Source: Candidatus Gastranaerophilales bacterium (lineage in GTDB: Bacteria; Cyanobacteriota; Vampirovibrionia; Gastranaerophilales; Gastranaerophilaceae). From it: a stretch of DNA of 48,260 nt. The notes beneath the pieces were generated by a model. It ran no database searches, was not told the DNA's origin, and saw nothing but the letters and a program-made list of their open reading frames with translations. The stretch covers positions 1 to 48,260 of the forward strand of contig CALVEI010000009.1 of NCBI GenBank assembly GCA_944326515.1, in the 5' to 3' direction. The translations under genes and the position numbers were made by a program. Of the stretch, positions 1-3,965 are shown one piece after another. Positions within the stretch are counted from its first letter, which is position 1; each line of letters begins with the position of its first letter.

Positions 1-2410
1 TTTTTGTTTGTTAAGTCGATGTCTATATTGAGTTTTGTCCCGTCGTTTGACATCATTGAAACAAAATTGTAGTCACGAGTTTCGTTGTTTGCTAGGTCAA
101 CTGTCACGTTTTTTGCTGTAACTTTTGCATTTTCTATGTCGTTGTATAAGGATACTGTACCTGTTCCGTCACCTGTTAATGCTAAGTTATATGCATGGTA
201 TGAAGTTTCCCAGAATTTTGGAGAAGATGACCAGTAATAGTACGAACCGCCTGAGATTGTGTCATCTATTTGGATTTTTCCGTTATTTACCGCATTAAGA
301 GTTAGTGTTGTATTACGTTGGATTGTTCCTGATGAGTTTGCGTAATTTGCTACATATATCGCGTTATTTTCTTTTACTCCGTTAGATTCAGTATAGTTGC
401 CTGAGATTAAAGAATTGGCATTATCGGCGTTTAAGGTAAGGTCGTAGTTAGTAAATATTGCACCACCTTTTGCCATATCTGTGCCTGTTTGAGATATAGC
501 GTAGTTGTTTAAAAAGTTGTTATTTGTAATACCGATTGTTGCTTTGTCACTTGATGAAGATATGTAGTTGTATATAGCTCCGCCAAGAGCATAGTTACTG
601 TTTGATTGAGCATAGTTGCCTATAAAATCACCTGTGATATCTCCGATTGTCACTGTTCCATTATAAGCATCGTTATAAATCGCTCCGCCATAGGCATTAG
701 AAGAATCAGATTGAGCATAGTTGCCTATAAAATCGCCTGTGATATCTCCGATTGTTGCTGTTCCATTGTAAGGATCGTTATAAATCGCTCCGCCATAGGC
801 ATAAGAAGAAGCTTGAGTATAGTTTCCAATAAAATCGCCTGTGATATTTTCGATCGTTCCTCTAAAGTTATAAATCGCTCCGCCAGAGGCTTCGGAAGAA
901 CCTTGAGCATAATTGCCTATAAAATCGCCTGTGATAGATTCGATTGTTGCTGTTCCTTTATAACCATAGTTATAAATCGCTCCGCCACGGGCTTTAGAAA
1001 ATGAACTAGTTCCATTAGATTGAGCATAGTTGCCTATAAAATCGCCTGTGATATCTCTGATTGTTGCTGTTGAATTATCAGCATAGTTATAAATCGCTCC
1101 GCCTTCGGCATATTTTGAAGTCGATTGAGCATAGTTGCCTATAAAATCACCTTTGATATTTCCGATTGTTCCATAACTGTTATAAATCGCTCCGCCTTCG
1201 GCATATTTTGAAGTCGATTGAGCATAGTTGCCTATAAAATCACCTTTGATATTTCCGATTGTTCCATAACTGTTATAAATCGCTCCGCCTTTGGCATCAG
1301 AATATGAACCAGTACCATTTGATTGAGCATAGTTGCCTATAAAATCACCTTTGATATTTCCGATTGTTCCATAACTGTTATAAATCGCTCCGCCATATGC
1401 ACCATAAGAAGAACCTTGAGCATAGTTGCCTATAAAATCGCCTGTGATATCTCCGATTGTTCCATAACTGTTATAAATCGCTCCGCCTTCGGCATATTTT
1501 GAAGTCGATTGAGCATAGTTGCCTATAAAATCGCCTGTGATATCTCCGATTGTTGCTGTTCCAGTATAAGCATAGTTATAAATCGCTCCGCCATAGACCC
1601 AAGAAGAACCTTGAGCATAGTTGCCTATAAAATCACCTGTGATATTGCCGATTGTTCCTTCTTCGTTATAAATCGCTCCGCCATCGGCACCATAAGAAGA
1701 ACCTTGAGCATAGTTGTCAACAAAATCAGCATTTATATCGCCAAGTTTTGCATTACTGCCATAATTGCGTATTGCACCGCCTAATTGATTTCCTGAAGTA
1801 CTGCCTGTTGTTTGACCTACAAACACACCTGTCGTAGTTTTAGAAGAATTATCCGTTGAATTGGTAAATCTTGTTTGGGCATCTGATGAATTATACTTAT
1901 ATGTTATAGTTTGACCTACAGAATTTGCAGGATTTTGCTTAAATTCAAGGTTTCCTGTATCCGCATTCTTTTCCCAGCCCAAAATTAGTGTTGTATCGCC
2001 GTTTGGGTTTCCATATTCTGTTTTATTCAAGTCAACACGATAATAGACAGGGACATATTTATTTTCAGAATCTGACCATTCATATTTTGTTATTACATTT
2101 TCACCTGCTTGATTTACTTTTTCTAAAGTATAGGCAGAATTTTCTCCTAGTGTAGGCACAGGTACAGTATCTGCAAAAACTGGTAAAGTAACAAATAATG
2201 ATAAAGCTAAGCATATTACTGCAGTTTTGGCATAACGAATTAATTTGTGAGATTCTTCGCTTTGCTCAGAATGACGGTCCAAAGTGTCGCATTCGCTCAG
2301 AATAACGTTAGAGAGTTGTTTTATTAGGCTTTCAACGCCCCCCCCCCGATTTTAAAATCGTTGTGGGACAAGGCTTTTAACCATTTCACATCTTTTATCT
2401 TCTTTGGCAT
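1..2410 (-). CDS. Large beta-helix repeat adhesin, 5' part, frame broken at a G10 tract (phase-variable candidate)
   Basis: The C-terminus lies beyond the left edge. A start at 2410 has a GAGGA Shine-Dalgarno at 2420-2424 and opens MPKKIKDVKWLK; this frame runs into ten G (2338-2347) and stops at TAA 2324-2326 after 28 residues. The body frame (codon first bases 2336, 2333 and so on) is open from there to position 1 without an ATG in its leader, so leader and body join only with 11 (or 8) G. The body has an extended N-region, a hydrophobic signal segment ending LPVFA-D near 2172, a unique region, then about 12 repeats of the type GGAIYN-x-GTIGDITGDFIGNYA, which look like right-handed beta-helix rungs of a surface adhesin or autotransporter passenger. 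No membrane anchor or barrel is visible because the end is missing. A G-run indel from sequencing is the alternative explanation for the frame break. Confidence 0.8.
562..1700 (-). repeat. Tandem array coding for beta-helix rungs (units of about 90-117 bp)
   Basis: The plus-strand string ATAAATCGCTCCGCC recurs near 675, 780, 869, 972, 1089, 1182, 1275, 1380, 1473, 1578 and 1668, and a diverged copy lies near 562. Spacings are multiples of three, about 90 to 117 bp. Two adjacent 93-bp units between about 1104 and 1289 are identical, which points to recent duplication. The array also creates open frames on the opposite strand, which I do not regard as genes. Confidence 0.9.
2338..2347 (-). repeat. 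Homopolymeric G10 tract in the adhesin leader
   Basis: Ten consecutive C on the plus strand, that is ten G on the coding strand, at codons 22-25 of the adhesin leader. It is the longest G or C run seen in this AT-rich window. Runs of this length slip during replication. With 10 G the leader terminates; with 11 or 8 it reads into the signal peptide and the repeat body. Confidence 0.9.
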
Positions 2411-3000: not shown

Positions 3001-3447
3001 ATGAGGTCTTTTATTGTGTTTGAATTATGGCAAATTTGGTGTATAGCCGGTGTTATATTTTTTATAATTGAGCTATTCACACCCGTATTGTTCTTTTTAA
3101 ATCTGGGGTTAGCTTGTTTTATTGCCGCAATTTGCGCAGCATTTGGAGTTGCAACAATAGCTCAGGTCATAGTTTTTGCAATATTTGGCACAATATTTTT
3201 AATCTGGCTAAGACCCGTACTTATGAAACGTAAAAAAATCTCTGAAGTAGAAACAGTAGATATGTACATCGGCAAAACCGCAAAAGTTATCAAAACCGTT
3301 ACAAAAGATGGCGGAAGAATCTATATTTTTGATGAAGAATGGCCTGCCGTATCACAAGACGGTAACACATATAATGAAGGAGATATGGTAACTATAACCA
3401 AAACAGAAAATATGCTTATGTACGTTGAAGGAAAGAAAACTAATTAA
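3001..3447 (+). CDS. NfeD-like membrane protein
   Basis: 148 residues. Three hydrophobic segments fill about residues 8-75 and are followed by a basic stop (MKRKK) and a C-terminal domain of about 65 residues with the pattern of an NfeD OB-fold (IGKTAKVIKTV ... NEGDMVTITK). Short NfeD proteins act with SPFH (stomatin/prohibitin-like) proteins in membrane microdomains and quality control. The genetic neighbourhood fits: two SPFH genes follow, the first overlapping this stop codon by one base (TAATG). The N-terminal ClpP-like protease domain of long NfeD proteins is absent. Confidence 0.85.
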   Translation: MRSFIVFELWQIWCIAGVIFFIIELFTPVLFFLNLGLACFIAAICAAFGVATIAQVIVFAIFGTIFLIWLRPVLMKRKKISEVETVDMYIGKTAKVIKTVTKDGGRIYIFDEEWPAVSQDGNTYNEGDMVTITKTENMLMYVEGKKTN

Positions 3448-3965
3448 TGTTTGTCATATTCATAAACGAAAATGAAGAAGCCATCATTGAGAGATATGGA
3501 AAATTCCACAAAACTCTTTCAACAGGAGTACACTTTTTAATACCTTTTATTGAAAAAATTAAAGGATTAAAGTCACCCGAAAATCATAAAAAATATATAA
3601 ATTACGGAAAAATAAAAAAAACTCAAGAAATATTTCATTTTCCTAAAGACAACAGGATATTTTTTGCAAAAGACAAATCACAACTTAAAATTAAGGCTGA
3701 TATCAGTTATCAAATTTTTGATAGTTATAAAGCAGTCTATGAAGTTGACTATCTGTTTGATGCGCTAAATCAGCTCTGCGCAGGTATATTACAAAGCAGA
3801 CTGCTAGATGCTCCAGAAAGCACAAATCAAGTAGATTATTTAAAATCTTTAACAGAAACCTTTCTCCCCACCTGCAATGAATATTGTCAAAAATGGGGAA
3901 TAAAGATATTGAATTTTGAACTCAAACAAATAACAGACACTAATGGAATAAGAAGAAACTTTTAA
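3447..3965 (+). CDS. Short SPFH/Band 7 protein lacking membrane anchor and coiled coil
   Basis: 172 residues. The start (NENEEAIIERYGKFHKTL) aligns by eye with the SPFH start of the following gene (QEEAIIIERLGAFEKVL), and the rest follows the Band 7 fold up to about the end of the domain. It lacks the N-terminal transmembrane helix and the long C-terminal coiled coil needed for oligomerisation, and it stops shortly after the domain. It may be a degenerating tandem duplicate or a small regulatory partner of the full-length neighbour. It is translationally coupled to the NfeD gene by a TAATG overlap, which suggests it is still expressed. Confidence 0.7.
   Translation: MFVIFINENEEAIIERYGKFHKTLSTGVHFLIPFIEKIKGLKSPENHKKYINYGKIKKTQEIFHFPKDNRIFFAKDKSQLKIKADISYQIFDSYKAVYEVDYLFDALNQLCAGILQSRLLDAPESTNQVDYLKSLTETFLPTCNEYCQKWGIKILNFELKQITDTNGIRRNF

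Follow-up and report, generated by a model that had tools for sequence, protein, structure and literature searches.

In the 48,260 nucleotides analysed here (the window, contig C9 of a 2.23-Mb, 119-contig Gastranaerophilales gut MAG, G000), a short leader frame on the minus strand runs into a homopolymer of G and stops, and the frame of a surface adhesin lies open beyond it. The question is whether the G tract switches this adhesin on and off by changing its length, as the original prediction held, and whether other genes share the arrangement.

Leader, G tract and adhesin body

The coordinates predicted for the ATG with its GAGGA, the ten G and the TAA after 28 codons were all verified on the minus strand (Table 1), and the frame arithmetic by which 11 or 8 G would fuse the leader with the body was right. 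A tract of ten G did not occur in any of 100 dinucleotide shuffles of the window, where 0.00 were expected. GAGG was kept in the leader copies that we read, and a further in-frame ATG at 2455, present in the window and in some copies, is replaced by ACG or AGG in others; ATG 2410 is therefore the conserved start. The promoter proposed upstream lies at the predicted position, but it was not among the consensus matches of the promoter scanner, and on its own account it is weak evidence of a promoter. Further up from the leader, the sequence surrounding TTTAAAAATATAAAAAATGGGAATTAAGAATATAG (2437–2472) is common to other loci in the genus (matches at query positions 9–44) and is perhaps a common promoter element.

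Table 1. Features read at the locus in the window.
Feature	Position	Strand	Remarks
Adhesin body, out of frame with the leader at G10	1–2339	minus	Open frame, cut by contig edge
GGAIYN / FIGNY repeats of the body, Pmp-like	560–1790	minus	Read from sequence and PF02415
Signal peptide KLIRYAKTAVICLALSLFVTLPVFA in body frame	2172–2246	minus	Sequence and hydropathy, no dedicated predictor
Dispersed repeat CCGTCATTCTGAGCAAAGCGAAGAATCTC, translated in the spacer between tract/leader and signal peptide	2249–2277	minus	Many short matches genus-wide
Leader ORF MPKKIKDVKWLKALSHNDFKIGGGALKA, 28 codons and TAA, spanning the tract	2324–2410	minus	ATG 2410, TAA 2326–2324
G10 homopolymer, proposed switch	2338–2347	minus	Exactly ten G
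AAAGCCTTG, one-mismatch form of AAACCCTTG	2369–2377	minus	5' of the G tract
Shine-Dalgarno-like GAGGA before ATG 2410	2420–2424	minus	Read from sequence
Promoter-like TTTACA-16-TATAAA	2458–2485	minus	TTTACA 2485–2480, 16-nt spacer, TATAAA 2463–2458; by sequence

The body frame has no stop between the tract and the contig edge (781 residues read), and it matches the Chlam_PMP repeat PF02415 above the cut-off (E 1e-4); the full-length paralogue L058 scored above the cut-off for POMP_repeat TIGR01376. By inspection and hydropathy only, the signal peptide has a hydrophobic core and an AxA-type end. The sole ATG, GTG or TTG between tract and signal peptide in the window is TTG 2282, which has no Shine-Dalgarno site, and the sister copies on C49, C69 and contig C1 of the congener G018 have no candidate start in this interval. 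A conserved start downstream of the tract was looked for among the cassette copies and none was found. These observations bear out the claim that the body lies in the next frame with a signal peptide and lacks a usable start; translation from the leader is inferred. Short matches to the CCGTCATTCTGAGCAAAGCGAAGAATCTC stretch (query about 203–241) are numerous across the genus, and among the cassette copies the repeat is present, absent or duplicated. Given this varying number, any insertion that preserves the frame would seem to be tolerated in the spacer.

Copies of the cassette in the genome and in a congener

A search for other genes with the same leader, which the original prediction had suggested as a check, led to seven loci in the genome and to a family-wide system described below. 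The genome has nine runs of at least nine G, against about 0.25 expected under a first-order Markov model, and seven of the nine belong to one cassette with a near-identical upstream region, leader, tract and body start. The tract lengths are 10 on C3, C9, C74 and C102, 11 on C27, and 12 on C49 and C69. Since four further contigs (C21, C89, C97 and C114) end within the leader region, the true number of cassettes is probably above seven. Near-identical homologues of the MPKKIKDVKWLKALSHNDFKIGGGALKA leader were found at these seven loci and at five loci of the congener G018, with tracts of G10, G9, G9, G10 and G13; several further species of the genus have diverged leader homologues.

When the frames of leader and body were counted, all 12 cassettes of the two genomes were OFF, including the window copy at G10, as had been predicted for the assembled sequence. 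The chance of this outcome is 0.008, assuming that one-third of cassettes are ON and that loci are independent. The C27 cassette has one base fewer before the tract; this one-nucleotide upstream indel shifts the frame as well, so that the tract is not the sole source of frame change.

Tract length variation and in-frame relatives

Tract lengths ranged from G9 to G13 among these 12 cassettes and from G8 to G13 among relatives overall, in-frame members of the genus included. A single fixed length of 8 or 11 G in the relatives, which would have spoken against a switch, was thus not observed. We compared 163 tracts, among which 26 locus pairs had at most five mismatches in 90 flanking nucleotides; tract length was unequal in 14 of these 26 pairs. 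The loci L193 (G11) and L207 (G12), from two species, have 712 bp in common with one substitution and one gap. The comparison suggests that tract length changes faster than its surroundings. All lengths were taken from assembled sequence without read-level counts, and assemblers can miscall tracts of G10–G13.

Three loci of the same genus are in frame from the leader ATG to the adhesin, each with leader, tract, signal peptide and adhesin: L133 in G004 (G10, 1043 codons from the leader ATG), L173 in G015 (G10, 948 codons) and L166 in G012 (G13). Their leaders are diverged, and the tract stands at the same place, ahead of related adhesins; most of their neighbours are out of frame. Since these relatives carry the same layout in frame, OFF is not a fixed architecture, and leader and body can form one natural frame with tract length deciding.

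Among 50 confident leader–body cassettes picked by rule, about eight were in frame (L133, L173, L166, L293, L296, L300 and two of L270) and about 42 were OFF. This exceeds the expectation for random frames, with one-third ON (P about 0.005 if the cassettes were independent, which they are not). The excess may reflect selection for silence, with few proteins displayed at a time; an effect of tract calling cannot be excluded. The genus also has a second leader type, with a poly-C tract, which feeds Pmp-like bodies as well (L141, L146, L182, L184 and L187).

Selection on out-of-frame bodies

In two out-of-frame bodies of G018 the frame runs without interruption for 1447 and 1618 codons. Of the differences over their last 300 aligned codons, 62 were synonymous and 26 nonsynonymous (omega about 0.12), which indicates that the C-terminal domain of these two OFF bodies is under purifying selection. 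Because of the long intact frames and the low omega, we regard the OFF bodies as not decayed.

Every one of the 23 genomes of the genus has the C-terminal domain, and the window genome has it 21 times; the window body is cut off before its own C terminus. Of 22 aligned members of this domain family, one matched the autotransporter beta-domain PF03797 (4.2e-11) and the others did not; on that single match, export by the type V route is likely. When the 22 members were used as a profile against solved structures there was no match, and an AlphaFold model of the domain with seven close relatives was too poor for use (pLDDT 27). Adhesion by the exported protein is inferred.

Homopolymer tracts across the family

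Outside the genus, one genome from each of 34 other genera had a mean of about 21 runs of at least nine G, with a maximum of 92, and 12 genomes of sister families in the order had 0–6. The poly-G layout, which looks like a switch, also stands ahead of dozens of other adhesin and pilus genes across the bacterial family. In G043 (genus g22), all 14 sampled tracts lie in a short leader followed by a type IV pilin N terminus. Most of these leaders have a clear Shine-Dalgarno site, 10 of the 14 have no ATG, GTG or TTG between tract and pilin core, and three of the 14 tracts are in frame (ON). Both G043 pilins tested had the prepilin methylation motif PF07963 above the cut-off. By locus, the motif was above the cut-off in L293 and L301 and below it in L264; TIGR02532 was above the cut-off in L293. 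Pilin-like bodies after tracts were also found in G094, G067, G156, G119, G138, G157, G199, G115 and G037. Tract instability is not explained by a missing MutS, since MutS1 is present in ten of ten genomes.

Tracts were also seen in other kinds of gene. In G018, two G11 tracts, at 2900 and at 3477, interrupt a DNA methyltransferase region (L179, C7:26000–30500), which has pieces of N6_N4_Mtase PF01555 at 1.2e-7 and 1.9e-22 and is a candidate for a phase-variable methylome switch. A G9 tract (L121, G002:C2) splits a methyltransferase-like gene that neighbours a glycosyltransferase-like one, and a G8 tract (L122, G003:C3) splits a hexapeptide-transferase-like gene; both are possible surface-glycan switches. 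In L172 (G015:C2), a G12 tract at 1044 lies within a flagellin gene (PF00669, E 1.1e-38) and adjoins an alternative long frame. Two contigs of the window genome, C85 and C107, which are phage-like by endolysin and tail-type matches, have G9 (L070, tract at 1799) and G11 (L071, tract at 1879) in a tiny ORF before one repeated family (NVLxDKxGNIxNPKIPRYE); on C85 the stop of the G9 frame overlaps the start codon that follows (ATGA).

The AAACCCTTG motif beside the tracts

A motif, AAACCCTTG, accompanies many of the tracts. Within the genus it stands, with at most one mismatch, no more than 45 nucleotides upstream on the G strand in 43 of 89 tracts of at least eight G, and in none of them in the next 45 nucleotides. 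Across the order, AAACCCTTG with a following tract was found in 54 of 318 genomes and 17 of 45 genera, and the reversed pattern in one genome; because the motif was itself a selection criterion here, these figures do not test the association without bias. The motif is read in three frames and lies on the opposite strand in poly-C leaders. An explanation at the protein level was ruled out by this reading in three frames and both directions, so that AAACCCTTG must be a feature of the DNA itself or a trace of common descent. The g22 leaders and most of the listed g14 tracts lack the motif; the switch therefore does not depend on it, and we dropped the idea of a general feature of the tracts.

The idea that AAACCCTTG is an integrase att site was dropped, since a BLAST of the motif against phages gave only chance-level matches (Streptococcus satellite phages and the Microcystis phage Mic1). 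The leader sequence had no match among viral contigs. It remains conceivable, though we would rather doubt it, that leader, tract and AAACCCTTG make up a portable DNA-level switch placed before unrelated surface genes (autotransporters and pilins) in three frames and both transcription directions, with AAACCCTTG as a cis element recruiting a tract-instability factor or as the mark of a mobile or recombining unit. At four loci in several species (L132, with its tract at 3298, L142, L147 and L188), a C tract stands just before KTLAISGFQLRYGKYKLDDLKAF in a non-adhesin gene, and AAACCCTTG is coding there.

Proposed mechanism and alternative explanations

We consider it very probable that the window locus is a translational phase-variation switch, operated by slipped-strand change of the G tract, and part of a large surface repertoire. 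Replication slippage would lengthen or shorten the tract, and one frame in three would join leader, spacer, signal sequence and body; the body, having no usable start, would depend on the leader start codon coming into frame. The window copy with G10 would be OFF, and lengths equal to 2 modulo 3 would give ON. The genome has at least seven cassettes of this kind, which would feed large Pmp-like autotransporter adhesins. The original reading of on/off phase variation by the G tract is supported by the length variation and by the in-frame relatives, and switching within a population is an inference from them.

The best rival is programmed transcriptional or translational slippage, in which the DNA length would be fixed, a steady minority of product would be in frame, and the genes would be tuned low and not switched. 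Most assembled tracts are indeed out of frame, many of them off by one from the fusing length, and slippage would rescue these without any change in the DNA. Under this explanation a fixed length would be expected, whereas the DNA length varies both between copies with near-identical flanks and between species, and fused versions exist; we regard slippage as the sole mechanism as unlikely, although both effects may coexist.

It is also possible that the G homopolymers were miscounted and that the genes are really fused and always on, since the sequences are MAG assemblies and tracts of G10–G13 are error-prone. However, the deviations run in both directions (G9 to G13) and occur in different assemblies, some of the assembled copies are in frame, and even with wrong counts dozens of paralogues would still have a long G tract at one conserved spot, so that we give this explanation hardly any credence. 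That the copies are decayed pseudogenes or silent recombination donors, with the common leader serving gene conversion and not translation, would agree with nearly all copies in the window genome being out of frame and with leader blocks alike enough to recombine (241 bp, 100% identical between C3 and C9). Decay is hard to reconcile with long intact frames, an omega of about 0.12 in the C-terminal domain and the existence of complete in-frame examples, and we find this account very improbable; recombination between leaders is possible as an additional mechanism beside the slipped-strand switch.

Comparison with known systems

In Chlamydia, variable poly-G and poly-C tracts with frameshifts in pmpG and other pmp genes have been explained as slipped-strand phase variation (PMC6740158). 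The chlamydial genes resemble the locus in the window in their Pmp-type adhesins, GGAI/FxxN repeats, expanded paralogues and variable tracts (PMC6740158). In the variable chlamydial pmpG group the hotspot tracts lie well inside the gene, e.g. about 1300 nt from the end (PMC6740158). In Gastranaerophilales, which belong to a different phylum, the tract instead occupies a leader ORF of its own that precedes the signal peptide; the same block recurs on many paralogues, and in sister genera such tracts are attached to genes for type IV pilins.

G/C homopolymers near the starts of surface genes switch the frame in Campylobacter, Helicobacter canadensis and Neisseria, and many loci per genome are involved, with 29 tract-associated coding regions in H. 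canadensis and 115 genes in N. meningitidis (PMC6321876, PMC2823697, PMC5084427). The position of the tracts near gene starts and the presence of many loci per genome are alike in our lineage. Those loci come from pathogens, whereas Gastranaerophilales is an uncultured gut lineage next to cyanobacteria with up to 92 runs of at least nine G per genome, of which those examined stand mostly before pilins or autotransporters via modular leaders. Poly-G switches of receptor-binding genes have been described in Campylobacter phages (Sorensen 2021, as cited in PMC11868660), and the phage-like contigs C85 and C107 are similar in that a small ORF containing the tract directly precedes a family of repeated genes, although neither host nor function is established.

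Poly-G phase variation of Pmp adhesins in Chlamydia and poly-G/C contingency loci in Campylobacter, Helicobacter and Neisseria are thus already known. A limited literature search found no paper that joins phase variation with Gastranaerophilales or describes phase variation in Melainabacteria, in agreement with the earlier remark that no case was known in this lineage. The novelty lies in the lineage, in the scale, in a modular leader that stands ahead of a signal or prepilin sequence, and in its use on two unrelated surface systems.

The layout implies that automatic annotation overlooks or cuts short many of the lineage's surface genes, since start and body stand in different frames. Metagenomes that already exist can be read directly for this system, which offers a test case beyond the known pathogens. 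If the proposed switch operates, most loci would be OFF at any time, and each cell would probably display a small, changing subset of many surface proteins.
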